From a virus, in IMG/VR virus record IMGVR_UViG_3300028550_003058, positions 1 to 49,758 of that record: 49,758 bases of DNA; one strand, given 5' to 3'. Position numbers and translations under genes: made by a program. The notes beneath the pieces are model-generated. The model was not told the origin of the DNA. It worked only from the letters and a program-made list of their open reading frames with translations, and searched no databases. How positions within the stretch are numbered: position 1 is the stretch's first letter; every line of letters begins with the position of its first letter. This document shows positions 3,141-45,600 of the stretch, in pieces.

Positions 3141-5096
3141 TTACTTATAAATACTGTCGAACCAGGTATCCCCAGAGCGATCATCTAAAATTTCAACTAC
3201 TTCTCTATTATATAACTCTCGCGTATGATACATACCTACCATAAACGCCATAACTCGGTCAAAGTTACCCTTTTGATTAAATTTAATTAACTCTAATAAC
3301 AATGCTGGGTCATAAATTGTATGCAAATTTAATTTAACGGTTCCATCTTCTGATGCACTTCTTGGGGTAAGCAACCAATCTCTAATATAAAGCTCTCCTT
3401 GTCGTTTTCTTTGCTCAGTCATATGCATACCATATTGACGTCTTACATTTTTGGATCTGAGTTCTCTCTTATCCAACATTTCAAACTCTTCTTGTAACTT
3501 ATATAACTTCCTAAATCTTTTTGCGTAAGCAATAAGCTCTCCACGGTCGTTCTCGAATCCAATTTTGGCATTGTAGAGTTCAGCCAGCATAAATAAATTT
3601 TTGTTGTACTCATCTTGTGTATTTGGTCTTCCTACATAACTAGCTACAATTATGTCATCAGGTTTAGAAAGATTATTTACTCGTTTAATCACATAAGCCG
3701 CTCCAAGAGATTCATTTGTTGTAGACTTTTCCTGAGCATACGGATCATGGCAGACAATATACAAATTATGCGGCACTTCTCCTCCTTCAGTTTTATAAGG
3801 ATGCTCGTATACAACTATAGCACCTTCTGTTTTGTCTCCTTTTCTGTGAGGGAATTTATATACTGGCACAGATTTTCCGCCCGGACGAAATACAATCTTG
3901 CTATCTTTGTCATAGTACACTTCCCCAGAAGTTCCTTCAGACTCTAAGCCATGCGCTCGAATCTTATTGTATTGTTCTTTAAGGGAGTTAATGTCAAATA
4001 GATTAGCTGTAACCTGAAGTGTTGCTTCTTGCGGAGAAAACGGATGCTCTGCTACATATTGATCTAAAGCTTTTGGATCGTTAGCTCCTTTTTTCTTCTC
4101 TCGTTGTTTATCTATAAATATCTTAGCTTCTCCTTCAATAGAGTTACCATTATCATCTATAAACCCATCTAAGTTTTCTTGAATAGGGACAAAGTACCCA
4201 CAGGTTGTTCCCATTGACCCTGAATCCCATACGTTTTCAAAAGACAAACAATCATATGAGTCTGGGTGATAAAAAAGTTCTTCCATTCCATCAAAGTCTG
4301 ATCCCTCAGTACCCCCTGTCCCAAAAGCAACCATAGTCCCAAGAGTTTTGCTACCTTGCCTCATGGTAGGCATAGCTACTTCCCACGCTTTTAAAAGTCC
4401 CCCAAAAGATCCTGCTTCCTCAAAGAATATAAGCTCTCCAGCTTTACCACGAACTTTATCTGGACTATCTTTAAGAGATACACCCATTATTTGGGACTTC
4501 ATACCAAGTTCAACGTCTGCCCCGTTAACATTTTTCTTATATCCAGACATCTTAGACATCTCTCTATCTCGTAGCCTGGGCTGTGTCCACGCAGTATTGT
4601 CATCAATAAAGCTTAAGAACTCCCAAGCTTTCGATAATAACCCGTCCCCAATCAAATACTCTTTACTTGCGGCAAAAACATAGTTCTTACTATTCCTAAC
4701 ATGGAAGTAATTTCGTGCTAACATTGCTGCTGCTTTGTACGAAAAACCTTTTCTACGAGCTTTTAATACAACCATGTGTTTGTTTTCCTTACGCGCTCGA
4801 TCTATACAGTTGTAATATTTAAAATCTCCGTCATAAAATGCAGGAAATGTTCTATCTCTTCTAGCCTGCACTGTTCCGTCTGGTAGTATCTCGTCTACAG
4901 CCCTGTCAATAGGGCAATAGTTTAAATAAAAATAATGATAGCCAGACATTCCTAAATAGCCATATAAACATCTGTTAGCTTCCTGATCCCAATGATCAAA
5001 GTATTCTTTAGTGCCTGGATGTATATCTGTGTAATACCCTGTCTTTATGTAATGGTTTGCAGCCGGAGAGTACTGTGTAGAATCAACAAATTTCAT
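3141..5096 (-). CDS. terL: Terminase large subunit (packaging ATPase and nuclease)
   Basis: 651 residues. This motor protein pumps DNA into the prohead and cuts it. Motifs seen: a Walker-A-like VLKARRKGFSYK at residues 110-121, of the degenerate type common in phage terminases; a Walker B with catalytic acid, ELIFFEEAG, at 221-229; a motif-III-like segment GTMVAFGTGG near 253-262; and a C-terminal RNase-H-like nuclease beginning YIVCHDPYAQ with acidic FENDRGE further on. ATG 5096 overlaps the stop of the upstream gene (ATGA). The order of small DNA-binding gene, TerL, portal is the crAss-like and general tailed-phage order. The N-terminal 90 residues are rich in Tyr and aromatic residues. Confidence 0.92.
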   Translation of the reverse strand: MKFVDSTQYSPAANHYIKTGYYTDIHPGTKEYFDHWDQEANRCLYGYLGMSGYHYFYLNYCPIDRAVDEILPDGTVQARRDRTFPAFYDGDFKYYNCIDRARKENKHMVVLKARRKGFSYKAAAMLARNYFHVRNSKNYVFAASKEYLIGDGLLSKAWEFLSFIDDNTAWTQPRLRDREMSKMSGYKKNVNGADVELGMKSQIMGVSLKDSPDKVRGKAGELIFFEEAGSFGGLLKAWEVAMPTMRQGSKTLGTMVAFGTGGTEGSDFDGMEELFYHPDSYDCLSFENVWDSGSMGTTCGYFVPIQENLDGFIDDNGNSIEGEAKIFIDKQREKKKGANDPKALDQYVAEHPFSPQEATLQVTANLFDINSLKEQYNKIRAHGLESEGTSGEVYYDKDSKIVFRPGGKSVPVYKFPHRKGDKTEGAIVVYEHPYKTEGGEVPHNLYIVCHDPYAQEKSTTNESLGAAYVIKRVNNLSKPDDIIVASYVGRPNTQDEYNKNLFMLAELYNAKIGFENDRGELIAYAKRFRKLYKLQEEFEMLDKRELRSKNVRRQYGMHMTEQRKRQGELYIRDWLLTPRSASEDGTVKLNLHTIYDPALLLELIKFNQKGNFDRVMAFMVGMYHTRELYNREVVEILDDRSGDTWFDSIYK

Positions 5097-6999: not shown

Positions 7000-7031
7000 C
7001 AAATATATAAAACTTTCTCTTATGTAACAAG
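7000..7031 (-). promoter_or_regulatory. Late-operon promoter candidate
   Basis: On the minus strand TATATTTG (7007-7000) is an exact match to the Bacteroidota -7 box TAnnTTTG. CTTG (7031-7028) lies exactly 20 bases upstream as a near match to the -33 box TTTG. Transcription would start about 10-15 bases before the GroES-like ATG at 6983. The short A-rich leader has no Shine-Dalgarno sequence, as usual for Bacteroidota genes. The -33 box overlaps a palindrome. Confidence 0.6.
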
Positions 7032-7358: not shown

Positions 7359-7718
7359 ATGAAATATATAATTACTTTAATATTTTTAATATTTAGCTTA
7401 ACTGCTATTGCCCAATGCAATCAGCATGTCTTTACTTCTGTAGGGGCAGAAAAATGGACAAATTTCCAGTATCAAGACTGCGATGGGGAAGCTCATTACT
7501 TTGGATTACCTGCGGGAGGATATACTATAATTTACTGTGCAGACATAGGAACTGCTTTTGTTTTAAACGGGGATGGGTTTGTATATCCTTTGCTTACAGA
7601 GCACCCTAACTATCCTTCCTGTGTTCAACCAGTTTGCGCTGGAGACTTTAATGAAGATGGGGATGTAGATGTAAACGACTTATTAACTTTTTTATCAAAT
7701 TACGGATCATGCAATTAG
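7359..7718 (+). CDS. Secreted protein with dockerin-like calcium-binding repeat
   Basis: 119 residues. Residues 1-19 form a signal peptide: Lys, then a hydrophobic core ending LTAIA, with probable cleavage before Gln-Cys. The body reads as a small beta domain with paired cysteines (QYQDCDGEAHYFGLPAGG and TIIYCADIG), of the 'Y-x-D-C-x-G ... L-x-x-G ... x-x-C-A' type seen in secreted Bacteroidota proteins. Residues about 95-119 match one dockerin type I / EF-hand-like repeat: AGDFNEDGDVDVNDLLTFL, with Asp/Asn ligands at the calcium-loop positions and then SNYG. A single repeat is half a full dockerin. A phage gene for an exported calcium-binding protein is unusual. Its start overlaps nothing, and its stop overlaps the next gene's ATG. 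Probable host origin; function unknown. Confidence 0.75.
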   Translation: MKYIITLIFLIFSLTAIAQCNQHVFTSVGAEKWTNFQYQDCDGEAHYFGLPAGGYTIIYCADIGTAFVLNGDGFVYPLLTEHPNYPSCVQPVCAGDFNEDGDVDVNDLLTFLSNYGSCN

Positions 7719-8188
7719 AAGTATTAAGATTTAACTACGGAACGGACTCAACTAACGGAATGTTATTTGAAATAAACAATGGAAAACGTGAATTTTTATG
7801 CTATACTCTCGAAGATGAAAGCCGCACTGAAAAAGTGTGGGGAGAAACTTGTATACCTGAAGGAGAGTACTGTCTTGGTCTTAGGATTGTTGGAGGACAT
7901 CATACTAAGTATTCCAAGAGGTTTGCTGATATACATCTTGGTATGCTTCATGTACTTGATGTCCCTAATTTTAAGTATATCCTTATACATTGTGGCAATA
8001 CTGATGAAGACACTGCGGGATGTTTATTATTGGGCAACTCGCAAGTAAATAACAGTATTAAAACTAATGGGTTTATAGGTAACAGCACTGAAGCTTACTT
8101 TAATGTATACCCACGAATTGCTGCTGTTTTAGAAAAAGGGCAAGATGTTACTATTAAATATATTGATTTTTCAACTATAGAATCATGA
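7709..8188 (+). CDS. DUF5675-family protein, possible peptidoglycan-active enzyme
   Basis: 159 residues. The sequence follows the DUF5675 pattern common in phages of Bacteroidota. An N-terminal strand LEVLRFNYG is followed by GMLFEI, CYTLEDE, then ETCIPEGEYCLGLR, and later HVLDVPNFKYILIHCGN and DTAGCLLLG (about residues 80-108). The IHxGN ... GC arrangement recalls L,D-transpeptidase-type folds, where His and Cys are catalytic. The biochemical role of the family is not settled. No signal peptide is visible. ATG 7709 lies within the last codons of the dockerin-like gene, and the last codons overlap the next ATG at 8185, so the three genes are coupled. A cell-wall or lysis role is an inference. 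Confidence 0.7.
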   Translation: MQLEVLRFNYGTDSTNGMLFEINNGKREFLCYTLEDESRTEKVWGETCIPEGEYCLGLRIVGGHHTKYSKRFADIHLGMLHVLDVPNFKYILIHCGNTDEDTAGCLLLGNSQVNNSIKTNGFIGNSTEAYFNVYPRIAAVLEKGQDVTIKYIDFSTIES

Positions 8189-9408
8189 AACAATTAAAAT
8201 TTGTATTGTTTATTTTATGTAGTATTTTTATTACTACAACTGTAAACGCACAATGTGATGTAGCTATTAATAGTTGGGATGCTACCACGGGTGACATTGT
8301 GGTTGAGGCTATCAACAGTGAGAACTGTGGGTGCAACGAGTTTACTAGTGTAGGAACTACTTGCGATAATAGTTCTAGCCCACACGTAACTAACAACACA
8401 ACAGTATCTCATATTGTTTTAGGGCTGCATGTAGAAGGGTTAGATTATAATTGGATGGATTGTCTAACAGGTGTTAATCATCCAGGTTGGACGTTTAAAG
8501 TTTTTACTCTTTACGGTAATCAGATTCTTAGCGATGGTGATACTTGGGGTGCTAATGTTTATGATACAGGGGCAAGTACAAACGATTGTTGGGCAGAACT
8601 ATTAGCTAATGATACTTTATGTACTGAGTTAGTTGTGTGGCAAATTAATTTATCTCGCACAGCTTTTATAGCTGAAGGAGGTTGGGCGTTGAATCCAGGG
8701 TTTAACCAAACTCAGAACTATCCTGACGTAGACCTGTCTAATAACACTGCTATATATTGTGCCTCACCTTCGTGTGATACTGTGTATGTAGATGTTATTG
8801 ATACGATTTATATAGATGTTGAGTGGATAACAACAGACACTCTATACATTACAGAAGTGGACACATTGATAGAGTATGTTCAATTACCCCCAGACACTGT
8901 ACAAGTAATTGAGTATGTAGACATAATTGAGTATCTATACGATACTATTGTGTTGATAGAAACAGACACTCTTGTTGAGCTTGAATATATTTATTTAACT
9001 GACACGATGTATGTAGAGACGGTTGTATATGAGTATCTCTACGTTTATAATACAGACACTATAACTGAGTTTGTATATGAATCTATTTATATAGATTGTG
9101 AAACGGGGGAACAATGTGCAGAAGCATTTCCTTGTGACGAGACTTCAATCTTTGCCCCAAATGTTGTAACCCCTAATGGGGATGGATGGAATGATACTTG
9201 GATGGTTGTTTCAGACGGAGCTTGTTGGGATCAATGGGAGACTCGCATCTACAATAGATGGGGTGGGCTTGTATGGATAAGTACATCGTCAATAGATGAG
9301 TGGGATGCTGACGTTGCTACAGGAACTTACGTCTATACTATAACAGCACACAGTTCTATGAACGCAAGTGTGTTTCAATTTAACGGAACAATAACTGTAC
9401 TATATTAA
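8185..9408 (+). CDS. Secreted surface protein with T9SS type-B (CHU_C-like) sorting domain
   Basis: 407 residues. Residues 1-23 are a signal peptide (Lys residues, hydrophobic core, NA before Gln-Cys). Residues about 24-195 form a Cys-rich domain with motifs such as SENCGCNEF and GWTFKVFTLYG. Residues about 195-305 are a low-complexity beta region with repeated Asp-Thr-hydrophobic units (DTVYVDV, DTIYIDV, DTLYITEV, DTLIEYV and others), roughly ten copies spaced 8-14 residues. The C-terminus (about 318-407) fits the gliding-motility-type C-terminal domain: IFAPNVVTPNGDGWNDTW, then TRIYNRWGGLVW, EWDA and GTYVYTI, ending in a strand. This domain directs proteins through the host type IX secretion system to the cell surface. 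The protein is therefore predicted to be exported by the host and displayed or released. Its role is unknown. Confidence 0.8.
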   Translation: MKQLKFVLFILCSIFITTTVNAQCDVAINSWDATTGDIVVEAINSENCGCNEFTSVGTTCDNSSSPHVTNNTTVSHIVLGLHVEGLDYNWMDCLTGVNHPGWTFKVFTLYGNQILSDGDTWGANVYDTGASTNDCWAELLANDTLCTELVVWQINLSRTAFIAEGGWALNPGFNQTQNYPDVDLSNNTAIYCASPSCDTVYVDVIDTIYIDVEWITTDTLYITEVDTLIEYVQLPPDTVQVIEYVDIIEYLYDTIVLIETDTLVELEYIYLTDTMYVETVVYEYLYVYNTDTITEFVYESIYIDCETGEQCAEAFPCDETSIFAPNVVTPNGDGWNDTWMVVSDGACWDQWETRIYNRWGGLVWISTSSIDEWDADVATGTYVYTITAHSSMNASVFQFNGTITVLY

Positions 9409-9409
9409 T

Positions 9410-11695
9410 ATGGGGAGAGACTACAGACAAGAATATTTAGATTTTCAATCTTCTAAAAAGGCAATAAGTAACCGTACGGAGTTAAATAAGATTAATCATA
9501 CAAACGGAACGTATGGTAATAATGACAATAAAGATGTAAGTCATCAACCAGATGGGAGTACAACAAGTGAGAACTCTAGTACTAATAAAAGTAGAAAAGA
9601 AAAAAGTCGTAAAAAAGGGAGCAAGAGAAAACCATTTAGGTTTTGGAGTAGAAAGAAAGCTGAGCAAGGGATACTGTTAAGTCCTGAATACGCAAAGAAA
9701 AAGAACTCTAGAATAAGAGCTCAGAATGGGTTAGACAAATATGGTTCCCCAATAGGTCAAAATTTAGTAACAGGCACTACTACTAAATCAGACAATACTA
9801 AAGTAAATGTTCCTAGTGTTTCTAGTTTATTAGATGCAACGGATGGAGGAGCGAATTTTGCACAAGTTGTAAAAACTAAAAAAGAAATTGATAAAAAAAC
9901 AGAATTGTACGATAAAATTCATGATCAAGGTACAATTTCTCAAGCCCCGGATAAAGATGAAACAAAAGAAGTAGGATTTTTAGAAATGGCTGGTTCCCCA
10001 ATTAAATCTTGGAAAGCACTTAGTCATCCTGCAACAGAAGGATTAAGTTTAACTCCAGCGGAGTATGACGCAAGGGGAGGTATTGGGAAAACTCCTCAAG
10101 ATATGGCTCTTGATGTTGTTAACCCAGCTGCATGGGTAGATTATGGGAGTAGGGTTGCAGGAAATTTAGGTAGAGGAGAATATTTAGAAGCTGGATTTAA
10201 TACTCTAGGAGCACTACCAGGAATAGTAATTCCAGGACAATCAGCAGTTAAAGAAACAATTAAAGGAGGACTTAAAAGTGTATCTGCCCCAGTTAAAAAT
10301 CATTTAAAGAATATGTCTTCAGCAAGAATAAAGGGCAGACAGATTTTAGAATCACCGTTTAAAAAAGAATTTAATTCTGCACTAAAAGAAGCAGATGAAT
10401 TTAGTCAAGGATTTTATAAAGATCCTAAAATACGAAAACATTTTGAGGAGTTATATCCTACAATAAATAAGAAGCAAATTGAAATAATGAGTGATCCTTT
10501 ATGGAATCCTAAAAACAGTATGGATCCTATGAAAGATTTAATAGCAAAGTATGGGGATGATGCTGTAAGAGATGCCTTTGCTGCAGAAAAATCAATGGCA
10601 GAAGGAAATGATATAGGTAAAGTTTTTGATAAAGGAGCTAAAAGTACGCTTGAGAAAGGGCATAATGCACACAAATCTTCACATATATCAGAGTCTGGGG
10701 GAGTATATCTGCCAGATCATTCATCTTGGGGAGCTATTAAAGATAAAGCTTTTGTAAATGAACTTGCTTATCCTTTGTCTAAAGGTAAAACTAAAACCTT
10801 TGTGCAAAATCTTTGGGGAAAAAATAAAGGAGACAAGACTCATTGGTTGGAAACGTATAACAAAGAGGGTATTACATCAACAGGAATTCATGAATTAAAT
10901 CATAAAAATACTTTTCACTTTTTAAAGACTGATGCAGGTAAAGTTGTTAAAGATAAACTCTCTCTTTTTGTAGATGATGCATATTCTCCTGTTACTAAAG
11001 GTAATAGATATTATCAACCTGATGAGAGTCTGAATAAATATTATGCTACTGCAGAAGAAATTACAGCACGAACTCAAGAAGTAAGAAAGTTTCTTTCAAC
11101 CGAGATAAATGGATATAAACGATTTTCAGGGATGTCGCATTTGGATGAATCAAAAATTGCTATTGGGGATTTTTCAGAACTCTCAGAAGCTGGAGTCGAT
11201 GGAATTGAAGTTTTAAAAGAAGCTATGAAAGCTAAAGGAGGGGAAGACTTATTTAAAATTCTTAAAGGGGGCTCAGAAACAGAAAAAGCTATTTCTCTTA
11301 TGAATCTTCTAAAGTATTCTCCTGTTATAACAGGTGCTGCTGCAGGAACAGCAATCACAGTTTTAGGTGAAGAAAACAATGATCCTACTTCTGGGGGTCC
11401 AGAATTTAAACTAGGGGGGAGAAAAAATTCTAGTAAGTATAATTTACGAAGAGGAGGTGTTAGGCGTAAAGCTCAGAAAGGTGTCAAGAAATTTCCGTAT
11501 GGGAGACCTGCAGTAAGAAAGTTAAGATCGTCTTTAGGTTTAAAGGGGATGACTAAAAAGCAAATACAAAGATATAAGGATAATCGTAATGATATAATAG
11601 CACACAATAAAAAATTATCAGAGGAAAAAGCTTTAGAAAAGGAAAAAAATAAAATTCCTAAAGGGCAGACGGTAATGTCTATTAAGCCGTCATAA
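9410..11695 (+). CDS. Large protein with zincin (HExxH) motif, possible virion protein
   Basis: 761 residues, ATG two bases after the upstream stop. The N-terminal 90 residues are basic and Ser/Asn/Lys-rich (KSRKEKSRKKGSKRKPF). A Gly/Ala segment follows near 220-290. Residues 494-498 are HELNH, an HExxH zinc-protease motif, with candidate third ligand Glu at 549/550 in AEEITARTQEVRKFL, the usual HExxH...E zincin spacing. A hydrophobic stretch ITGAAAGTAITVLG lies near 645. The C-terminal 100 residues are very basic (GGRKNSSKYNLRRGGVRRKAQKG) and suit nucleic-acid or envelope contact. Such mixed proteins are often packaged and injected in phages of Bacteroidota. Here it sits on the early strand, so a cytoplasmic or cell-envelope role is equally possible. 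Confidence 0.6.
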   Translation: MGRDYRQEYLDFQSSKKAISNRTELNKINHTNGTYGNNDNKDVSHQPDGSTTSENSSTNKSRKEKSRKKGSKRKPFRFWSRKKAEQGILLSPEYAKKKNSRIRAQNGLDKYGSPIGQNLVTGTTTKSDNTKVNVPSVSSLLDATDGGANFAQVVKTKKEIDKKTELYDKIHDQGTISQAPDKDETKEVGFLEMAGSPIKSWKALSHPATEGLSLTPAEYDARGGIGKTPQDMALDVVNPAAWVDYGSRVAGNLGRGEYLEAGFNTLGALPGIVIPGQSAVKETIKGGLKSVSAPVKNHLKNMSSARIKGRQILESPFKKEFNSALKEADEFSQGFYKDPKIRKHFEELYPTINKKQIEIMSDPLWNPKNSMDPMKDLIAKYGDDAVRDAFAAEKSMAEGNDIGKVFDKGAKSTLEKGHNAHKSSHISESGGVYLPDHSSWGAIKDKAFVNELAYPLSKGKTKTFVQNLWGKNKGDKTHWLETYNKEGITSTGIHELNHKNTFHFLKTDAGKVVKDKLSLFVDDAYSPVTKGNRYYQPDESLNKYYATAEEITARTQEVRKFLSTEINGYKRFSGMSHLDESKIAIGDFSELSEAGVDGIEVLKEAMKAKGGEDLFKILKGGSETEKAISLMNLLKYSPVITGAAAGTAITVLGEENNDPTSGGPEFKLGGRKNSSKYNLRRGGVRRKAQKGVKKFPYGRPAVRKLRSSLGLKGMTKKQIQRYKDNRNDIIAHNKKLSEEKALEKEKNKIPKGQTVMSIKPS

Positions 11696-30688: not shown

Positions 30689-33600
30689 TTACTTGAGTAG
30701 CCACTTTATTTTTTCCTCTGGAGTCATAGTAGATCTCCATCCTTCTAGTAACGGAACAATTCTACCAGCCTTAGCCCAAAACTTACTGTCTCCTTTTTCA
30801 TTAGGACCAGTTCTTTTTTGGTAGTTTAAATCTTTATCATCTACATCAAAGCCTAGCACACTTGGTGCTGAAAAACTAATAGTATGTTTAAATAAACCTA
30901 TGTATTTTGTTATAATATTAGACGCAGCTGTTGGGGAATCAAAAGTCTTAAATAATTCTACAGGATTAATAAAAGACGTTAACTCAAGCTGTAATCTTCT
31001 TGCTTGGTAAGCACCAAATGATGCTGCGTATGCTGTAGCATCATCATCGTCATCCGCCATCCCTGTTAAAGCTGAAACTAGGAACCCCATTGTGGTCCAC
31101 ATCCCCATTTCATACATAGTCCTTTTAACATTTTGTTGATCTACTAAACTCATAGATTTGTAAACACCAAAAGGATTTGCTCTAGTAGTCCAAGAATTTT
31201 TAACCATATCAAAGAAAGATAAATATGAACCTCTTGTAACATCTCCTAGCTCATGATCAACATGATACCCGTCACCGTGACCCCATTTTTTTCTCCAACC
31301 TGGTATAAAGTAATTCCTAAATAACAACGCTAACTTTAATGCTGGGTATCTCTTAGCCATAGGAGAATCAAATGCCCCTTTAATTTGGTTAGTTCTTTTA
31401 GATATACCATGAAGTTTATTAGTGAACTGACTTGTACTAAAGTTAGCTACTCTAGGGTCTACAGTTAAAACCCCTTTTTTGTTTTTGATGAGCATATCCC
31501 ACAGATCTGCTTCTTCACCTTTTTCATTTAAAAGAACCTTCCCATTTTTATCTTGCAACTTACCTTTCATATTACGCATCATAGAAAGCATTCTTACACC
31601 TGCAGTTTGATGCTCAGGACCATGTTGTAAAGCAAATAAAGTATTTGTGCTGGCAAGTTTACGAGATTTGTTGCTAGTTGCGTCTTTACCTAAAGACTCT
31701 GTATTATCAATCATAGCATCAAACATCATCATAGCTTGACCTAACTTAGATTTTGCTACAAACTTTCCAAGGTCTCCTATAGCTGCTCCTTCAGAAGCAT
31801 ATGTTCCTACAGCCCATGCATGATCAGACTTATTAAAGAATTGACCTGCTACAGCTTCTTCATGAGTATTCATGTTATCGAATATAAGCTGGTTACTTGC
31901 TTGCAAAGCATTACCTGCTAAACTATTCAGAGCTGTTAAAGTAGTTAAGGATCCAGCTATTTTGTTTAAATCTACAGTCTGCCCAAATATATCCTGGGAA
32001 CTTTGTTTGTTGTGCATACCGTAAAAATTAGCATCTATAAATTCTTGTAGGTGACGTAAATTTTTACTTTTAGGATCTATTCTAGAAGACTTTGTATTTT
32101 CAAACCCTAATTTTTCTGCAACTTGATCTCTAGCAAATCCTCCCCAAGAACTAACAGTAGTAGTCTCTCTTGTTTCATGAGCATTAAGCATCCCAGATAC
32201 AAGTCCTGACATCTTAGACTTTTCTTTAAACATGTGAGACATATGCCCAAATGTTAAAACACTTGACAGCACATCTCTAGAAACTTCAGACTCATCCATA
32301 GAGCTCATGTAATAAAGAGGAACTGTTCTAGAAGGCTTTCCTGCAGAATCAAGTCTCATGCTCCATTCTACATCTTCTCCTTCTCTTATAGTAGCTAAGC
32401 TTTTTACCTGCTCTGATATAGTATTACCTAATCCATTTTTTTGAGCTCGCTCAATATCGCTTTTACGAACTGAAGGCATCTGATAAGAATACGTATCCCA
32501 CCCATTAACCGCTAAACCTCTTGTGCCTGTAATCTTTTGCTTCTCTTGATACTTGTTAATTACATACTCATAGTACTCTTTAAGCTCTGGACTATCTTGT
32601 ATTGCTGTCCACTTAGGATTTCTATACGATTTATTTGGTTTAACAAGTCTGCCAGAAAATGTGTACCCCCCAGTATTAGGGTTATATATATAAGAGTATG
32701 ATTTCTCTGCAGCCAATGATGATGACTCATCATACAAAGCATATAATTTATCTTTATCAGATGCTAAAGTAGATTCACCTATAAGAGCAATAGCTTTGTT
32801 TACTTCATCTATACGAGCATTAATTTTGTCTATAGCTTCTTGAGCCCCTCTTACAGGTACAGTATTTTCAGACGACCACTTCTCTCTCTTTGCTTGGTAT
32901 TGATTCCATTTGTCATTGTAAAGAATTCTCTTCGTACCGTCTTCAAGTTCTGTAACTGTTTTTTGCCAATCTTTAAACTCTTGACTTCCTTTGTAAACAA
33001 ATCCTCCCTTGTCATCTTTAGGCCATCCAGTCTCTTCTTTAATCTGATTCTCCATAGCAGATCTTTTAGAGTAGAAGTCCTTAACGTCGTACTCTTGTAC
33101 TAACGACAGTATTTTCTTAGACCCATCTCTGCTATCTAAAACTTCTAAAAGATCCTTATTAAATTCGTTAACATTAAAGTCTCCTCCTTTAAAAGTTTTA
33201 AATCTTTGGTAGAATTCTTCAGCCTCGTGTAGATCTTCAATAGTTTTTGCGTTTCCTTGATAGATAGCATCTTTAAGTGCAAGAGAAAATAACTGAATAT
33301 TTGCTTCAGTAGAATACACCATTGGATCTAGCCACATAGCAAATGCACTTTTATCAATGTGTGCATTACGCATCTCATCAATCAGGTTCTGAACCTCTGG
33401 CATTTTATTTTTTAGCTGTTCAATTTTTAACTTAAGAAGTTCTTCATTGTAATCTTCTTGAGTTAACGTACCATTTTTTTTAGATGCTCGCAGTTCTTTA
33501 AACTTAGGATCTTTTCTGTTTATACCGGTTATATCCTTATTAGCTATAGCATGATCAATAAGAGCTTGAATCTTTGGACTTACTGATCCATTAGTGTAAG

Positions 33601-36600
33601 TTAAAAGAGTTTCCGCAATAAGAGGAATAACAGTATCTCTGTAGCTAAGATCCAACCTGTCTAAGTCAAAGATGCTGTCTCGTAAAGAAGATCTCATCAC
33701 AGATATAGGTCCCCCAACTTCTTCGCTAAGAGACATAGTATTCATTACACTCTCCATCTTTTTAAGGATAGAGTTGTTACTACCATGCAAGCTATCTAAT
33801 ACTTCTTTAATTTCATTTATATTATTTAAAAGCTCTAGCTTCTCATCTTTAGAAAGATTCTCTGAGTTGTCCATCTTGACACGAACATCATTGTAAACTC
33901 TTGTAGCTCTGTCTATACGAACGATTGCATGTTCATGTAATTCTAAAATTACTGATAATGTATCTTTCTTTTCTTTTAATCTTAAAGCAGACTTCTTGAG
34001 CTCCCGCAAACGGCGTACATCTTTTTTACGCATATCCGATTCAGGCATACTCTCAAGTCTCATTATATCTGACTCGAGAACAATTAAAGCATCTCTAGAT
34101 AAGTTTGATATTTCTTCATTCAAGTCTCTAGACTGTTGAGCTTTAGTATTAAACACTCCGGACAGTGACAGCTCCCTGATCTCCCCAGCAAACATCTTCT
34201 CAGCTAATTCAGCAGCTACATTAGGTCTAACCCCAAATATCTTACCAAGTGCCCTAAGAATCTTATTGATTATCTTTTGGATAGGTGAAGGATTTTGTCT
34301 CTCTAACTTTGCTCCCTCCATTCCAATAGCTGTAACAAGTATCTCAGTTCCTAACTGCTCTTCAGTTAATTCCGGATACATCTTTCTAACCATCTCAGCT
34401 AACACAGGGTCGGCTTTCACTATCATAGCTACATACGCCTTCCTCTGATCCGCAGGCAGCATGTCAACCAAAATATGCCCAAACTCGTGATACACAGTAT
34501 CCTCAGTAAGTTGAGATGGATCTAAAAGTATTTCTTTACCCTGCACCATACCTTTTGTGCCTTTAGGTAAAGACTTAAATTGTATGTTAAGCATAATGCC
34601 TGCGTTTGCAAACACTCTACGTAACTTATTTACCTTACGTGTAGAATTAGATGCACTTTCTGATATTGCAGCACTTGTTCCTAGATCTCTAGAAAATAAT
34701 CTGCCTTCGTTATTTGCTTGTTCAGCAGAAAGCTTTGCAAGCTTCTCAACAGCTTGATTATAAGATTCTGTAAGCTGCTCAGCAAGCATGCTGCTAAAGT
34801 CATCAAAACCCTGTTCAGCATTATCTAACTCTCTTCGAATAGCGTCAACAATTTTTTGCTGTGCTTCCACTTGTTCAGCAATAGGTAAAGAAGAAAATGT
34901 TTCCTCTTCCATTGCAGCTCTTGACGCCTCTTCAAATTCTTCTTTATTTAAGGTCTTCTTACTACTTTGTTGTGTTGGTTTAGATAAAGCTTTGAAAGCT
35001 TCTGCTGCTTCTTCTGCTGTATCATAGTCTTCATATAATGAACCATTAACTTTATATTGTATTTCATTTCCAAATAACTCAAGCTCACTACCAAGTGAAT
35101 CAAATGTTTTAACCTCACTAGGTTGTTGAGTAGAATCTGTCTTATTAGCTATAGCAGATAACGTAGGTCCAGGAGCATTCCATTCACTCTTAATTTCAGA
35201 AGTTTCAACACCAACTACACCATCAGGTTGTCCAGAATAGTCTACTTTTTGAGTCCAATCACTTTCTGCAGGATTAGTTATAGGCACAGCTGACAAAGCA
35301 AGAAACCCTTTAGATCTACCTAATGGATCTGCTCCACGGTCATCTCTAACATTTAACTCACTGTATCCTTTAAATCCTTTAGGGACAACTTTTACCCACT
35401 CATAAGTCTTACCTTTTTCAGGCATTCTTTTTGTAGATATACGGTATACTGCAGCTTCACCAGTAGCAGCGTCTTCTATAATTATAGCTGTATGTTTTTG
35501 AAATGTCTGCTTTATTATACTTGGGGAAGGATCTCCATTTACTTTAGGATACAATGTATTACCTCCGTACGTCCTAAGTGCATAACTACTATTAAAATTA
35601 TCTGTAAAATCAGAAAGAGATGTTGCATCCCCTAAGCTATTTAAAATCTTAGATTGATGCTCTGAAATACCTAAATCGTCTAACATTTTATTAGGTATCA
35701 ACTCAAACATAGAAGATGGACCTGGACGAAATTCGTTAGTAATAATCTCGTTTGTTAAAAGATCTCTACCAAATCGTTTTACAATAGCTAATTGTTCAGG
35801 AGAAGCTGAAGGGAAAAGAAGTGCGGGCTCATATATCATAAGCTCCCACTCTCTAGAAAGTCTATTTTTTTCCGACGATTCTTTAGATTGCTTAGCATTA
35901 AACGTTACAGAATGCACAACTCTCCCATTAATATTAGTTTCTTTCGGATCAATAAGATCTAAAATGGCTACATTTCCTGAATCTGACAACTCTTTAATTG
36001 TTGCAAGATTTTGAGCAATGTTTCCTTCAGGGACTAGGTGAACTCTACGCACAGTACTCTCAGACATAATACCTGGATTACTTTCTGTTACATTCCCATT
36101 TTTGTCAAAAACAACTCCATCATTAAAGATAGGAGACCCAGGCATTGTAGCAATGTAATGAGCAATTGAGTAATTCATATCTCTATGCTCTTGCTCATTA
36201 AAGAATCCTTTACCTACAGTAGTTAAGATGTGTCGTTTAGCAGCTGTAACTGCAGGCTGTGTACCTATAAGACCAAATTGCTCTGCTACCTGAATATTCT
36301 TTCTAATATGCTTGTAGTACTCTCTTGTAGATGGATACGCATCTCCAGTAATAAACTTATTTAAAAGAGAAGGTCCTCCCCATAGTCGTTCTTGGCTACC
36401 TGTTCCATAAGAACTAGAATAAAAATTTAATTTATCAAGAATTGCAATGTTAGCATGCATTGTACTCTTCTTATCTACTTTAAAAGGAGTAACCATGTCA
36501 TACAAATTCTTTAAAGAAATAGAATTCATGTGGAAAAACCTTAAGTTATCCTGCATCAACTTTCTTTCTTCGGGAGTCATTTCTTTCTCTCCTTTAGCCC

Positions 36601-39600
36601 AAGCTATTAAGTCTTCAGACTTCATCTCAGTTACAGTTTGACCTTTTGAAGGCCCAACTATAGCTTTTTGTAAAGAAGGATTTATTGATTCTTTTGCTAC
36701 AGCAACGGCTTCTAAAACAACTGGATTTTTCATAAATGCAATTGTTTGAGTAGGAGACATTCCTAAACTAAGCATATAGATTTGCAAGTTTGCTGTAAGA
36801 GCATTGTCATTAATCTTTGCGTGAATAGGACTTTTAACTGCGTCTAATGCAGCAGAAAGAAATTGAACTATATTACTATCTGTAGTAGGATATAATCCAG
36901 TTAATGGCGAAGCAAATTCAGAACGAGTAGCTACATTGTCAAGAGTTTTGCCATCTATTTTAATAAATGGAAACTCTTGTGCTTTACTAATAAGATCTCG
37001 ATTATTAAGCCCTGCCCCAATAAGTACATTTCTACCAGAAACAGCGTTAGCATATATCCCAATTAAAGAATTTGCTACCATATTATCTACCCCAGTTTTA
37101 ATTTTTGTCCTAGGGTTATTTAGATCTACGTTAGAATCAACTTCAATACCAAGCTCCTCCATAGCTAACTCAATCTCTACTGTCCCAAGAGGTTCTGTAA
37201 TCTCATCTATGTGTAAAGTACTAGAAGCAATAGCTTCAAATGTATCAAAAATAACATTATTAATTGCTTTTTCAGATAATTGCTGAACTGATGTATTATT
37301 AGGATCTAAAAGAGATGCATAATCTGGGTTAATTCTTTCTCCTTGCTTATTTAACTCAGGGAACATAATAAACATCTTATCAATATCAAAGTCAGCTCCC
37401 ATCTGTTTAGTGATCTGCCCTGGTACCCTAATAGATTTTGCATAAGATGCAGGAAGAACCTTTACAATCTTCATAATAAGCATAGAGTTCTTACCCTGTT
37501 GAGGTATACGATACCCTATAATTCTTCTAAGTTCTTCATTAATAGATTCAAGAGATTGACCCGGATCAATACCAAAAGATCTAAGTACGTCTTCACGAAG
37601 TTCTACTTCAGCATGCTTTATTCTATTATCGTCAACTTTTAAAAATTGTAAATCATTTCCTTCTTCAGATGGCCCAAAGTCAGCAAACTGAACCATCTCC
37701 ATTCCAGAAATACTCTGACGCATTATCTTATTTCTAAATACACTAAAAATAAGTTGCTCTATAGATCTTTGCACAGTAGGAAAAGATGCAGGAACCGTTA
37801 AATCAATTCGCCCAATCTCTGTCATACGAGTTTCAAAACCTGATATAACATTTTCGGAAAGACCCTTATCCTCAGACATTGCATAAAGCTTGTTTCGCAT
37901 AGCAACCATCATGTTATTATGTTCTTTAATAATAACTTTTGGGTCTTGCTTAGTTGGGAGCTTTTCTAATTCTCTAAATAATTTGTCTGCCCCAAACTCT
38001 TTTAACACAGCTTTAGAATTAATGTCCATCTTACGAGAGATCGCTTGATGAAAAAGAGATTTTAACTCTCTTCCTGTAATAGGGAATTCATTCTTTAAAC
38101 TTGGATTTATATAATACGTACCATCATTATATAAATTTGTAAGCATATTTACTTTAGCTTGTCTACCTAAAGTCATTAGCCTTTCTTTTGCTGATGCAGA
38201 TATATCTTGTGGTATACGTAGATTTTTACCATCAAGAGTTACTACAGATAAATCTGCAAACTCCCCAGGAGAATATGTTACATTATGACTCCCAATCTTA
38301 ACTTCTTTCTCTACATCCTCTGTATGCACTACATGCACTTCCTGCATTTCATTAGCATACGCTCCTCTTTTTTCCATCCGCTCCACTAAGTCCTTAAGTA
38401 AGGGAGTGCTGGCTGCTAATTCATCTGTAATAACAATATAAGAGTTTTTATCAAATACTGGGACAAGCTCGTTATTTATTTCTTCTAATCCTGCGTGAAC
38501 AGGCTTAACCATAGTAATAGCTCTACCTCCCCACACTCTGTTTCCTGGCTCACCTTCCATATACTTTTTGTACTGAGGCTCATCTGTCTTTAAACTCCAC
38601 TCTCCTTTACCCATCTCAATAGCTCTCCACATATGAATAGATACTATAGACTGAGCATCGGTAGAATTAATAGCTTCAGCTACGTATTCTTTTTCTCTTG
38701 CTTTACCAAGATATGCTGCACGTTCTAAAAATTCTTCTAGTTTTGCAGCTCTTGATTCAGAATTTAAACTTTCTAGTTCCCTAGAAGCATCTTGAACCAT
38801 ATCATTATAAACCTTCATAGCATATGCATCCCCAATAGACTGTGCGTTTTTTTCAGCTACAGCTGTATTATAAGGAGACAAGTTTTTGAGAGTTATCTTA
38901 TTGTACGTCTCAAACATTCCGTATCTATTGTCTTCTTCTCCCGGCTGCAAAGGCATTTCTTCACCTATTGCTTCCCCACGCATAAACAGATGCCTTCCTG
39001 GAGAAGACGACCCTGACTGTCTTTTAATAAAATCTATACCATTCTTAGTAAACTGAACACCTCCTTTCATTAAGGTGTTAATAGCTATAGTACCTAAAAT
39101 ATCATCTTTAACAAAGTTTTTAAACAGCTGTAAATCTGTTTGACCACCTGTAAATTTTTGAGGTAAGTTTTCAAGAACCCATTGCTTAATAGCTTGATTC
39201 TTAAGGTTTTCATTAGCAAAAGTTTTATCTTCTAAAACAACTTCGTCTATTAATTCATTCACATACGAGTCAATCATAGACTCTATATGAGCAGAATGAG
39301 CATCTAATTGATTCTTTACATCTTCAGAAAACTCTACATTACGCGTCTCTGCTTCCCAAACCTGTCTAGCAAGTTCTAATCTTTGATCTACAGTTTCAGA
39401 AGGATTAACAGGTAGTTGAGATATTAAAGACCTTCTTCCTGGGTGTTCATAATCTTTAACCCCATTCTCATCTATAACATAATGATAATTCTCTATCTCT
39501 TTATTAGGGGCCTTCTTACCTTCTTCTCGAGCGGTTCTATTTTCCGTCATATCCTTAGTAGCCTTCCAAGTTCTATGAAGATCTACAATCATTTGATTAC

Positions 39601-42600
39601 GGAAAAGTTCTGCAGGAGTTTCTTTTATATTGTATAATTTTCTAGACTCTGGCTGACTAAACTTAGGAAGAGCAAAAGACATCATTTTAGCTCTATCTGA
39701 GTGCGTTATTGTGCTGATAAGAGCATTTTCTTTCATACCCCTGCCTAACCAATGCTGCATTCTTAATGCAAGAGATCTTTCTTCAGATAAAGAAGAATAA
39801 TCGTTAGCAAGATTATAACCTTGCTTTGTTGCATCAAGTATATTTTCATGAAAATCTTTTTGAAACTTGGGAGATAAAAGCAAATTAGATGTAACACTTT
39901 TAGTTCTTGGAGTTTCTACACCTGCTTTACCTGCAAACTTTCTAGATGCTGTACCATTTTTAACTGAAGCTACTACGTCACTGTGTTGATCTTTTTGATT
40001 AACAGTGTACATTGTTTTATTGCTAGCAGTTTGGAAAGATCCTGCAGATTCTTCTTCAAATACTGGTATAAAAATTTCAGCAATTTTCTGCATGTCTTTA
40101 CCCATACTACCTATAGTATGAATATTCTGTACAGTATTTCCAAGAATATACTTTTCTATATTTTTAGACAGATTTAAACCACCAAATCCTGATTTAATTA
40201 ATCCCGCAACAGTTTGTCTGTGTGTAGCTAAAATATTAGGATCTGTATAAAACTGTGTAACTCTTTCTCTTGTCTGAGCTTTAGATTTACCAATATGTAT
40301 ATCTAAATCCCAAAGTAAATCTGATAAAGACTGCAATACTTCAGGAGCGGTCTCTTGACCCCCGGCTATACCATCAAGAACTACTTGAAGATTATCATTA
40401 ATTTTCTTTTTCTTTCTAGGGTTTATAGAAAGACTAACCCCATCTCTAGTATATAAACCTTGACTAGACTCTGAAAGCTTTTTCCATGAATCTTTAGCAG
40501 TTAAAGCAGAAGAATTTCTATTAGGATTAATAATATTAATTTTAGTTCCTCCCTGGTAATCAAGCTGAGTTTGAACTATATTAAAATTCCTCATAGTTAA
40601 AGCCATTTGATATATAGTCGCTTGCTGCTCAGCAGAAAACTGACTAATTACCCTAGCTATAGCTTTTGTTTTTGGATTTTTTAAAAGATTTCTCCGCATC
40701 TCTTTAAACGAAACAGAATCTTTGGATGCATTAATAACTATTTTGTACACATCTGCAACAGGGATATTAGTATTAAACCCCATGCGGCTACCTCCTCTTC
40801 GCTTAGACTCGTCTGCAGGAATTCTAGATAAAAGTCTTTTAGACTTCTGTGATATTTTTTTAAATGGGTTGTTTTCTAAAGACGTTAAAGAATGAACTTT
40901 TTCTAAAATTTCTTCATTAGTGACAAGATCTATTTCTACTACCTCCATTTCCGAAGAAAGCTTTACAGTGTATCCGTAATCTTTCATTCTCCTCATAGTC
41001 TCTTCTCTAACTCCTCCTTTAATAACAAAGCCCGTATCATCTTTTTCTGAAAACCACGAAGAATAAATTGAACGCATGTTCTCTCCATGAAGAGCACTGC
41101 CTCTAACCTGCCTTGGTAAAATAAATTGATCTCCTACTTTACCTTTATGAGGAGTTCCCCAAATATTTTCTTTTGTTATATACTCATTAAAAGCATCAGA
41201 GTTATCAGTAGTATCTTCTTCTAAGAAAGTTTTAATTCCTTGGAACTGTTCATCTGATATAGGCCCTTCTTCTTCTGTAGAAAAAGAATTACGAAAATAA
41301 TAATCTGCAAGTTTAGAACCTGTCTTACCTTCTACTCCAAAAAGATCATCTGGAAGAACACCATTAAAATCTTTTTTATCTGCAATAGCATCAATAGCTA
41401 CAATAGCTTTTGTAGAAACTGAATCTATAATTTCATTGTAAAGATTTAGATCATACTTAAATGAGTCCACCATTCTAAATGCTTGCTCAGAAGGCCTCAA
41501 ACTTGTTGCTTTTCTAAAGAACTTTGTAGGTATAGAGTTTGACTCTAATAAACTAAATGCTTGATTAACACTTAATGGGCTCCCAACCATAGCTTTAATA
41601 AGATTCCACAAGTCGCTAAAGAACTTAGCAATTCTGCTTGGGGTAGAAATATTTTCTTGAACTAAGGTATACTCTCTAAATCCTTCAGCTAATTTTTCTT
41701 CAAGAACTAACTCTCTTGCTTCTGTTGCAGACAAAGAAGGATATGCTTTTTTCATAGCACTTACTTCTGCTAAAGTAGGCTTGCCATATGTTTTTACTGC
41801 ATCTGCAAAAAGCTCTTTTCTTTGTGCATCATTTAAAGCTGTACGGAAAAACATGTGGAACCCCTCATGATATTCTGTACCAACTTCTGCTAAGGAGTAT
41901 AGATAAGCTGCCCCGTTTTGGACATATCCATGAACTGTGTCATCCCCAATTTGAGATAACGTATTAAATATAAATGCAGAATCTTTACCAAATCTTGCTT
42001 CTAACCATCTTTTAGCTCTTCGAGTATTAATTTTTTTAACAGACGAATCTGAAGGCTTTCTCCTAAAAGGAGGTAGTTCTGGTGTAAGTGCTTTATGTTC
42101 TTCAACAGCTTGGTGATATGCTTTTTGAGCAGCGTTAAGAACCGCAGCATCGTTTCCTTCTTCTGCTTTTTGCAATTCCTCCCAAAGCCTGTCTACTTTT
42201 TCTACAGCAGCTTGTATTTTAGGATCTTCTTCAGATGTAGTATCTTCTGTTGTTTTCCTTCTACGACGAGGATCTACTTTTATTTTTTTATTATTTGGGC
42301 TAGGTGGGGGTAAAGGGTCCTCAATATTAGGATCTATGACTGGCTTAGGAACAATAATATTATTTATTACATCCTCAGTATTTGTCTCTACTAATGTGTT
42401 TATACCAATAGCACTAAAAAAGCTACCTTCTAAATAAATCATATCAGACTGAAGCTTCGACGGACCTCCTTCTTCTAAAGGCTGGCTTAACTCTTCAAGA
42501 TATCCTGGAGTATTCATACGTGCAGCATCAATTTGATACTTTAATCCAGCTATTGTTTTTTCTAAATACCCTTTAAAATCTCCTTCTAATATTTTCTTAA

Positions 42601-45600
42601 CTTGCTCTTGGGTCTCAACTGGAAAAGTTTGTGCTTTAAATACTTGTCTTGTTGAATTAGTGTTAACATCTGCCTCTGCAGAATATTGACCAAGAGTAAC
42701 AGGTATGTTTGCCATGCCTTTTTCAAGGCCTTCTGCAAGATTGTTAGCAGTAAACTGTCCTATTACTCCGTTTCCTAAATCTATATTTATAACTACATTA
42801 CCATCTTTGAGGTCATCCTCAATAAAAAGTTTTTTACCTGCAGCGTAATCACCTATACCGGCTAATTCTTTTAACTCAGATGCAGCTTCCTTAGTATTTT
42901 GAAGCAACAAGTTTAAAGCAGTTACCTGGTCTGCTTTAATAAGATTAGAAGTACTAAGTTTAGCTAAACGGTAATTACCTTCTGGGTCTTTAACAATAGT
43001 AAATAGCTGACCTAGATTAGAAATATTTTCTCCTCGTTGTAATAAGTTTGTAATCCCCTGTATATCTTCTTCAGACATTCCTTCAGGAAATTGCACTCCT
43101 TCCTTTGTGTCCCAAACAGATCCGGTCTTTACTACAAGCATTATAGCTGGTTGATCCTCAGCCCCCTCAAACATCTTTATAACAGTCCTAAATACAGGCT
43201 TATATGTACCATCTTCTTGCAGGGTAACAGTATTATTGTAATTACTTATACCTGCCCCAACTGCCCCGCTCATTTTAGCTACTTTACCTACAACGTTTTC
43301 CCCATTTATTAACTTCTCATAAAGTTGTTCTCTTGCTGAGTTATCCCCATACTGATTAGATGCTATGTACCCAATAATCTCACCTTCGTGCTTAATAGCT
43401 ATCTGAGCTAATTTAGGATTAGAATCTGTTTCATCATACTCTATTAACTCATACGTAACTTCTACATCAACTTTAGAGTTTTTATGCTTATGCTTAAAGT
43501 TAACAGGAGGAAGTCCAGGGAAACGTTTAGTAAACTCTTCATTAGCTATAGGTAACCCATTTTTATCTAATATTAATTTATAAGGTGTACCTCTTTCAAA
43601 CTTAGATAAACGATTACCGTTTGCATCTAGTTGTATAAGCTCATATTGAAACGAAACTCCTTTTAAGGTTCCTTCTATACCTGATACAGTTATTGCAGAT
43701 TCTGGCTCATTTGAGATTACTCCTTTCTTTTTAGTATTTTCAAAAAATTGTTCAGCCTCTAAATCTTTTCTTACTTGTTCTCTTTCTTCGTTAGTAGTAA
43801 CATCAAACTCTCTGTCTTCTTCTATTTGACGTCTTCTTATCTCATCAAAAATTTCCTTATCTGTTATTACTATATCTGTGTTATTAGCTGGCTCTCCTCT
43901 GTTAGGGATATCAGATTCTTCTTCCGGAGAAGGCTTAACAATCTTAGGCTCTAACTCATTTGCTTGAGTTCTAACTTCAATTTCTTTTGCAAGAATTTCT
44001 TTTTCTAACTCATTAGTAGAATTATTTAATTGTTCTTGAAGTTCTGCTACACTTTTTGTATCAGCCTCTTCTTTAATTTTAAAAGCTTGATCTTGTCTTT
44101 CACGTAAAAGATGCCGCATAGAATCTTGCTGTTCTTTAGAAGCATTAGGATGAGATTTTATTATCTCTTCAAGATCTTTGATACCTACAGAGTTATCAAT
44201 AGCATCTTTAGCTTCTTGATCTGTAATTTTTTGAGCAGCGGCTAATTCATTAGCCTTCATTTTTTGAATATACAAGTTCCTTTCTTCAGGAGCTTTAAAC
44301 AAATTATTTAATGCATCTGCTGCTTGAGCTCTATCACCAGCTAAACTTACAAGATCTTGTAAAGCTGTCTCTAATATTTCAGCTTTTTCTGGATCAGTAA
44401 TTTTTAATCTTTGTAATTCTTCTTCAGCTTTTTCAATTTTTTCTTGAACTCCTTTAGTAGATTCTTCAGTTAAAAGAAAATCTTTTTTAGAAAATCCTGC
44501 TGAACTTAGTCCTTCGTTTACATCACTTCTAAGAGATTCTATACGTTTATCTACATCTTCTAAAATTGCCATGTTATTATACACCGCTTTTTTATAGTAC
44601 TGATGAGAATCAATTCTTGCGTTCTCTTCTTCTATTGCCTCTTTGGACATTAAAGATTTAAGCACCCCCCCTGTTTTTCTAGGGGTTGGGAATCTAGCTT
44701 CTACTCTATTGTGTATATCAACAAAATTGTCAATATTTTTAAGAGCAGAATCTACAATTTTATTCTTATCAAATATTACCCCATCCTCAATACCAAACTC
44801 TTCTTTAAATGACTCATCTGACATCTCTCTAGTGTCAGCTATACGTTGACGATACATATCAATACTACCTAACTCAATATGCATTAAAGCTTGAGATTGA
44901 ATTAACCTTGCATGTGCATCTCTGTATTTTTTATGATCTCCTACTTTACCAGTAAACTTACCTTGAGCGTCTCTTTCAGGTAATGTTAAAGCAGTTTGCA
45001 TGTCCTCCATTGCTTTTTCTGCTTGTCGGGCACCAACAGCTTTATTCTGAGCATTTTTAATATGAGAATTGTTCTTCATTCTCAAAATCTCCTGAGTATT
45101 TTTGTCTAAAGTTTCACGTTCTGCTTTCCCATTTTTAATAGACCCAAGTCCTCCAGTAGCTATACCAATAATAGCTCCCAAAAGCATAGACTCTCTACCA
45201 TCTTTACTGCCGTACGTTTCCCCAAAGCCATGAACCACAGCTTCTGACCAATCTTTAATAGTATTGCTTTCTCCGTTTCTTTTGTTAGCAGCTAAATCTT
45301 CTCCAGCAATTTGAGTAGCGTACTGAGTTCCCTCTTGAGCAGCTTCAGATATTCCTGGTTTAATTAATTTCTGAGTTGCATTGATAGCTAACTTTTTCCA
45401 CTTTGGGGAATCTGAAAACTTATCTACCCACTTACCTGACTTAGCTTCCTTTGAAACATTCCTATATGACTTTGCCTTTGGCATATACTTAGGACTAAGT
45501 ACACCCTTTAAGGTTATCATATTAGTAAAAGAGAGTACCGCTAAGTTTGTCCCAAACACAACATTAGCTGCATAAGAAGCTCGATCTAAAGCTTTAGCTT

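Follow-up and report, generated by a model that had tools for sequence, protein, structure and literature searches.

A phage gene family encoding a putative type IX secretion cargo with a type B-like sorting domain, an Asp-Thr stalk and a cysteine-rich head

In many Bacteroidota, surface decoration, gliding and the breakdown of polymers depend on an export route, the type IX secretion system (T9SS). A gene carried by a virus raises the question of whether a phage can address a protein of its own to this route. The gene occupies positions 8185-9408 on the plus strand of IMG/VR record IMGVR_UViG_3300028550_003058, a virus DNA of 49,758 nucleotides that was analyzed over its full length and is referred to here as the window. 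It runs from ATG to stop and encodes 407 amino acids. We put the probability that the product is a phage-made T9SS cargo at roughly 0.85. This assignment, derived from sequence comparison and structure prediction, is well supported because of a specific profile match, the placement of the matching domain at the very end of the protein, a divergent yet preserved leader, the resemblance of the modeled C-terminal domain (CTD) to that of NucA, and the recurrence of the domain in 63 of 63 groups of relatives.

Four segments are delineated in the protein. The leader, residues 1-22 (8185..8250), has the sequence MKQLKFVLFILCSIFITTTVNA followed by QC and reads by eye as a signal peptide with its cleavage site. 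The preliminary description of this DNA, made from the letters alone, had also proposed a signal peptide, and the family agrees: 73 of 74 N-termini pass a heuristic of hydrophobicity and cleavage motif, which was devised for this analysis, is not SignalP and has no negative set. The head (N-domain), residues 23-192 (8251..8760), was delimited from alignments and an AlphaFold2 model; it is cysteine-rich and weakly immunoglobulin-like (Ig-like), and eight cysteines are invariant across 34 sequences. The stalk, residues 197-306 (8773..9102), consists of nine Asp-Thr-hydrophobic units, a number that none of 10,000 residue shuffles reaches, the highest count being six. Thus, the repeat described earlier stands, with nine units in place of about ten. 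Residues 318-407 (9136..9405) form the predicted CHU_C or type B-like T9SS sorting domain, assigned from profile matches and model comparison.

The profile evidence is the most direct. Pfam CHU_C (PF13585, type IX secretion signal) matches residues 324-392 with 56.5 bits and an E value of 3.2e-15, well above the cut-off of 27, and finds no match in 14 control genomes. This is the search that the preliminary description had put forward, and its central claim of a type B-like sorting domain is well supported. Conserved blocks can be recognized by eye as PNVVTPNGDGWNDTW, IYNRWGGLVW and GTYVYTI.

The full-length model is poor, with a mean predicted local distance difference test (pLDDT) score of 59.2, and the sorting domain within it is good (about 80-90). 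Modeled as an Ig-like β-sandwich, the CTD has as its best match in a second-look aligner the sorting domain of NucA in a T9SS complex (8glk_D), with a Z score of 9.2 and a root-mean-square deviation of 1.8 over 72 of 75 residues. RemA (8gl6_D) and RemZ (8gl8_D) follow with Z of 7.9, and entries for RgpB, PorZ and PorU are listed as well. The structural comparison proposed at the outset therefore places the CTD model closest to a T9SS sorting domain, yet the Ig-like fold itself is not specific. The head was modeled alone with AlphaFold2 (predicted template modeling score 0.77, mean pLDDT 76.7). Foldseek returned nothing with E below 0.001 for the head, and the second look gave lamin-tail, FN3 and GH2 Ig-like domains with Z of at most 6.4, and CARDB with Z of 5.2; no function is drawn from these fold matches. 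A phmmer search of the whole cargo protein against the PDB gave one match (E 0.71), which is taken as chance.

Relatives were collected by scans of IMG/VR, which gave 77 loci with the cargo protein, the best 80 of 85 confirmed loci with the head alignment, and 42 loci with a small neighboring protein, the partner, that is described below. Loci in which the DNA at the end of the head-bearing open reading frame (ORF) is identical were merged into 79 groups. The head is present in 75 of them, including the window (L001) and one genome contig (L079); 12 of the 75 are cut at the 3' end and 63 are intact. When clustered by protein identity, the intact groups reduce to 56 clusters at 95%, 52 at 90% and 41 at 80%. 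The sorting domain is found in 63 of 63 intact groups and reaches the last residue in each, as counted with a CTD hidden Markov model (HMM) built from 34 family sequences, window included, that were picked partly by a CTD-like motif. The survey of related phages that had been suggested thus finds the gene in relatives together with its address. Pfam CHU_C matches all 34 family members submitted; since these were chosen partly by the motif, the result confirms the profile and gives no frequency. Among 29 phage records picked for holding the family, which include the window and a near-identical record, CHU_C occurs exactly once per record in 28, and in the 29th the gene ends at a contig edge. 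In each of the 63 groups in which this feature was counted (62 intact groups plus the truncated L015, with L041, whose head matches poorly, omitted), the segment that joins head and sorting domain holds four or more Asp-Thr-hydrophobic units. The head-to-sorting-domain distance in these groups varies from 80 to 668 residues, and the longest spacings include other domains.

The segments diverge at different rates. Compared with the window protein, 33 relatives are on average 69% identical in the head, 64% in the sorting domain and 21% in the signal peptide. Because identity in this segment is so low and 73 of 74 N-termini nevertheless pass the heuristic, the leader, as read from the alignments, conserves its role and not its letters. 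Head and sorting domain can also part company. The proteins of L002 and L027 are 95% identical in the N-domain and 32% in the CTD, and those of L012 and L041 are 28% identical in the N-domain and 85% in the CTD. By these comparisons, the sorting domain is exchanged between relatives and is never lost among the intact genes seen.

The distribution of the family bears on two further explanations. The protein could be a virion part, such as a fiber or decoration, whose hydrophobic N-terminus and Ig-like C-terminus merely mimic secretion signals. Virions often carry Ig-like domains, some relatives have the gene close to genes of structural appearance (L063, by eye), and in L079 it adjoins a protein with a weak tail-family match. 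The signal peptides, which are conserved though divergent in sequence, the eight invariant cysteines and the specific CHU_C match argue otherwise, as do the very different gene neighborhoods, which in phages of 100-200 kb include regions of non-structural appearance (by eye); a virion part is quite improbable. Less probable still, and by far the weakest candidate, is a host gene that was captured recently and serves no function in the phage. In favor of this reading, the CHU_C domain is bacterial and Bacteroidota commonly have T9SS cargo genes. A scan of the genomes of 84,980 species, made with two short peptide patterns of the head that distant cellular relatives could escape, gave one relative, on a phage-like contig, as against 75 groups from the viral scans, that contig and the window included. 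An origin as host gene or prophage was followed up through the 37 pattern matches in genome contigs and rejected: the one relative among them (L079, WLWP01000006.1, 61.6 kb) has neighboring ORFs that look phage-like by eye and is therefore treated as binned phage DNA. This contig belongs to a metagenome-assembled genome labeled Pseudomonadales and is probably misbinned.

The family spans crAss-like phages near the window, a second lineage, and phages of 100-200 kb with very different genes. A tblastn search of three family proteins against 50,697 phage records retrieved only two huge uncultured phages, LR756502 and LR745206 (L189-L190; 642 and 635 kb), through the C-terminal region. CHU_C matches number three and four in these phages, and type A matches one and two, one of the type A matches being under the cut-off. 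Among 72,556 plasmid records, six, all from Hymenobacter, match in the C-terminal region only, in proteins annotated as gliding motility-associated C-terminal domain proteins. Four of the 29 phage records that hold the family have a type A sorting domain, and L033 (42.3 bits) and L012 (39.0 bits) encode a second cargo with such a domain.

The partner gene of the window (7359..7718, plus strand) encodes 119 amino acids with a signal peptide by eye and a dockerin/EF-hand-like tail at residues 92-119; the Dockerin_1 match of this tail (E 0.12) is below the family cut-off. A partner lies within 1 kb of the head gene in 46 of the 75 head groups, upstream in 39 (five of them with a DUF5675 gene between) and downstream in seven. 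In two further groups another gene separates the two, the partner lying 1.3 and 2.5 kb upstream, and in three a larger neighbor has the tail motif of the partner; this neighbor is an M43 protease in those scanned. Conversely, a head- or sorting-domain gene lies within 1 kb of the partner in all 42 partner loci, which derive largely from contigs of the head scans; four of them have a different head or one that is cut off. Cargo and partner are found together in crAss-like phages near the window and in 100-200 kb phages with different genes. In the second lineage they adjoin terminase and portal genes, the portal being of family phrog_6547 as in the window. In L013, an ORF at 7461-9950 that lies between partner and cargo encodes an 829-residue DUF285/BspA-type repeat protein, with a GroEL-like ORF nearby (by eye).

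Several observations weigh against a T9SS cargo or its export as proposed below. The window protein scores 32.5 bits (E 7e-8) with NCBIfam TIGR04131 (T9SS type B), which is 2.5 under the cut-off of 35; three relatives scanned score 41.1 (L063), 37.4 (L069) and 35.0, equal to the cut-off (L066). No Foldseek match of the CTD model had an E value below 0.001, and Ig-like domains that are unrelated come within 1 Z unit of the NucA match; the fold therefore supports, but does not single out, the T9SS family. No carrier phage of the cargo family has a named host. Nine named crAss-like or related phages have neither a CHU_C nor a type A domain, nor was the head matched in them, in a search made without a positive control. 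Seven of the nine have a crAss-type or similar terminase and come from isolates or an enriched host, including Flavobacterium and Cellulophaga, and two are uncultured; such phages thus manage without the cargo. The partner is not universal, as none is seen in 24 of the 75 head groups. These include several cut loci, such as L001, whose partner lies in the window, and at least nine partner-less groups (L046, L054, L063, L064, L067, L128, L131, L134 and L138) have at least 1.5 kb on both sides. Finally, bacterial type B genes are often linked to PorP/SprF shuttle genes, whereas the PorP/SprF profile TIGR03519 matches in none of 30 phage records, the controls giving no match either.

A signal-peptide protein of 343-365 residues, outer-membrane-barrel-like by eye, is present in L012, L033, L036 and L069, within about 1.3 kb of large proteins of the cargo cluster that have a signal peptide or are partial. 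Among these barrel-flanked loci, a type A domain is confirmed in L012, L033 and the L069 record. The barrel-like protein of L033 has no match in Pfam, NCBIfam or PHROGs, and that of L036 has none in NCBIfam.

If the protein is a T9SS cargo, its export may be pictured as follows. The partner, DUF5675 and cargo genes, which overlap, would be expressed together in infection. The signal peptide would direct the protein through Sec to the periplasm, where the conserved cysteines can pair. The CHU_C domain would then be taken by the host T9SS translocon together with a host shuttle barrel of the PorP/SprF type, a step modeled on the profile match and the biology of bacterial type B domains (PMC12618676, PMC9143113). 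The protein would stay on the cell or leave it, its cysteine-rich head held off by the Asp-Thr stalk, and in many phages the small secreted partner would accompany it. That the cargo is displayed on, or released from, an infected Bacteroidota cell is probable, at a confidence somewhat lower than for the cargo assignment itself. The persistence of a T9SS-addressed protein across wide divergence and in several types of phage suggests selection on the address itself, and phages may therefore remodel the surface of the infected cell through the host's own export route.

As to purpose, surface exclusion is tentatively ranked first, followed by ecology or surface remodeling and then by release. In the first case the cargo would alter how phages meet the infected-cell surface: it could mask receptors or, on the type B route, compete with gliding adhesins such as SprB. 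The phages affected would be others or the released progeny. Mutations in gliding and T9SS genes lead to phage resistance in Cellulophaga baltica and other flavobacteria, with SprB and RemA as possible receptors, and some flavobacterial phages need gliding proteins to adsorb (PMC13288928).

A possible but less favored purpose is ecological, the secreted head altering adhesion, aggregation, binding of matrix or polymers or, in relatives with M43 proteases, surface proteolysis, and not excluding phages. The variable distance at which the head is held gives it an adhesin-like look. One protein of L066 combines the head with an M43 metalloprotease domain (63.6 bits) and CHU_C (56.3 bits), and the close relatives L067 and L068 have head and CHU_C by HMM. 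Enzymes have been proposed as T9SS cargo for Cryophage (PMC7468147). The window protein itself has no catalytic domain found by Pfam, and it can be argued that what a dying cell does to its ecology in the long term is of little benefit to a lytic phage, although the lifestyle of this phage is not established.

The genes next to the cargo bear on release, a rather unlikely purpose in which cargo and partner would be part of a lysis region and would alter or weaken the outer surface of the cell at burst, with DUF5675 acting on peptidoglycan and an embedded ORF as its holin. The three plus-strand genes overlap in the order partner, DUF5675, cargo; the DUF5675 gene (7709..8188; PF18925, 92.6 bits) shares 10 bases with the partner gene and four with the cargo gene. 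The cargo follows DUF5675 directly in the window and in five near relatives, and of the 78 loci from the first scan, which differ in flank length, 21 have DUF5675. In many relatives, however, it is several genes off or outside the flank, and its role is unproven, the PHROGs category being unknown function. The pairing of the head with M43 metalloproteases in relatives would also suit release. Apart from L066, the neighboring gene in L043, L069 and L134 encodes an M43 protease with a dockerin-like stretch that is under the library cut-offs, and the L069 protease has a type A-like end, again under the cut-off.

Release is further favored by an overlapping hydrophobic ORF of 89 codons (7779..8048, plus strand) that is maintained in frame +1 within DUF5675. 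An ATG occurs near the same place in 17 of 17 distinct DUF5675 genes, the window included, and the frame is open in 16 of 17 (in L113 from the second ATG; 15 of 17 by the script's start), as against 0.06 expected by synonymous re-coding. Over 80-codon windows with few gaps, 21 of 22 DUF5675 members have the frame open; 25 of 26 control families have none and one has 2 of 15, the controls being unmatched in family diversity and four further families having no usable window. DUF5675 may be a lysis gene, and the ORF embedded in it is a candidate holin gene.

Returning to surface exclusion, the exchange of sorting domains suggests a more specific version, which we regard as doubtful. A mobile module of stalked head, exchangeable type B domain and usually a partner would bring about a T9SS-based superinfection exclusion through an occupied PorP/SprF route, with domain swaps tracking the host shuttle. 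In Flavobacterium johnsoniae, type B domains require five conserved motifs, A-E, for secretion and are matched to particular PorP/SprF shuttles (PMC12618676), and SprB has been found bound to SprF (PMC9143113). Because of this pairing, swapping of the sorting domain could follow a change of host shuttle. The exchange among near-identical heads is in any case a natural experiment on the pairing of type B domain and host shuttle, and the sorting-domain subtype might become a host-prediction signal for uncultured phages.

The preliminary description knew of no described system of this kind, a statement overtaken by published reports. A phage-encoded T9SS cargo as such is already known (PMC7468147, PMC6949934). 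Cryophage has three genes with T9SS type A sorting domains, for which hijacking of the host system was proposed and superinfection exclusion suggested (PMC7468147). There the type A domains sit on three variable genes (endoglucanase, glycoside hydrolase and PA14) of one phage; here, by contrast, one type B-like family has its own head, a stalk and often a partner, and occurs in several phage lineages. A lineage of BACON-domain gut phages encodes T9SS sorting-domain proteins upstream of its head genes, and one BACON ORF bears such a domain (PMC6949934). That system resembles the present one in the address and differs in its BACON repeats and its gut lineage; a head such as this, an Asp-Thr stalk and a partner are not reported in the portion of that paper available. 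The bacterial type B substrates, SprB and the 12 type B proteins of F. johnsoniae, share the combination of signal peptide and type B CTD (PMC12618676, PMC9143113). Among superinfection-exclusion proteins, the T5 receptor blocker is a cited example (PMC13288928). The cargo resembles these proteins as a phage-encoded envelope protein possibly acting on receptors, and differs in its predicted route, as phage superinfection-exclusion proteins are not known to be routed by the T9SS. A type B family with stalk and partner was not found in the literature searched, with most subscription papers and preprints beyond its reach.

The large terminase (TerL) of the window (3141-5096) is 42% identical to that of cr115_1 (Crassvirales, Suoliviridae) and has matches in 156 of 50,697 phage records, the named hosts of which include Bacteroides, Flavobacterium psychrophilum and Candidatus Azobacteroides. 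Judged by this gene, the window comes from the genome of a crAss-like phage; the record, at 49.8 kb, is shorter than the roughly 90-100 kb typical for most crAss-like records listed. A Shine-Dalgarno-like motif is present in the 20 bases upstream of none of 28 chosen window genes. Because of the crAss-like affiliation and the absent Shine-Dalgarno motifs, the sequence points to a Bacteroidota host, and this falls short of proving a T9SS there.

Other features of the window are minor. Scans for Rfam families and tRNAs were empty. A Bacteroidota-type promoter-like site lies at 7000..7030 on the minus strand, 5' of a divergent cpn10 gene. It is one of eight matches in the window to a loose pattern of the Bacteroidota motif, and these matches were counted without a chance control. 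Downstream of the cargo, a plus-strand gene (9410..11695) encodes a 761-residue protein of phrog_6437, which we do not count as a member of the system. In several relatives the cargo gene is followed by a small protein (75-90 residues, also phrog_6437) of the same cluster. On the minus strand, 30689-46678 is a single ORF of 5,329 residues in which a DFDID stretch and HExxH-like stretches can be seen by eye, the DFDID stretch resembling the crAss-type RNA polymerase motif.
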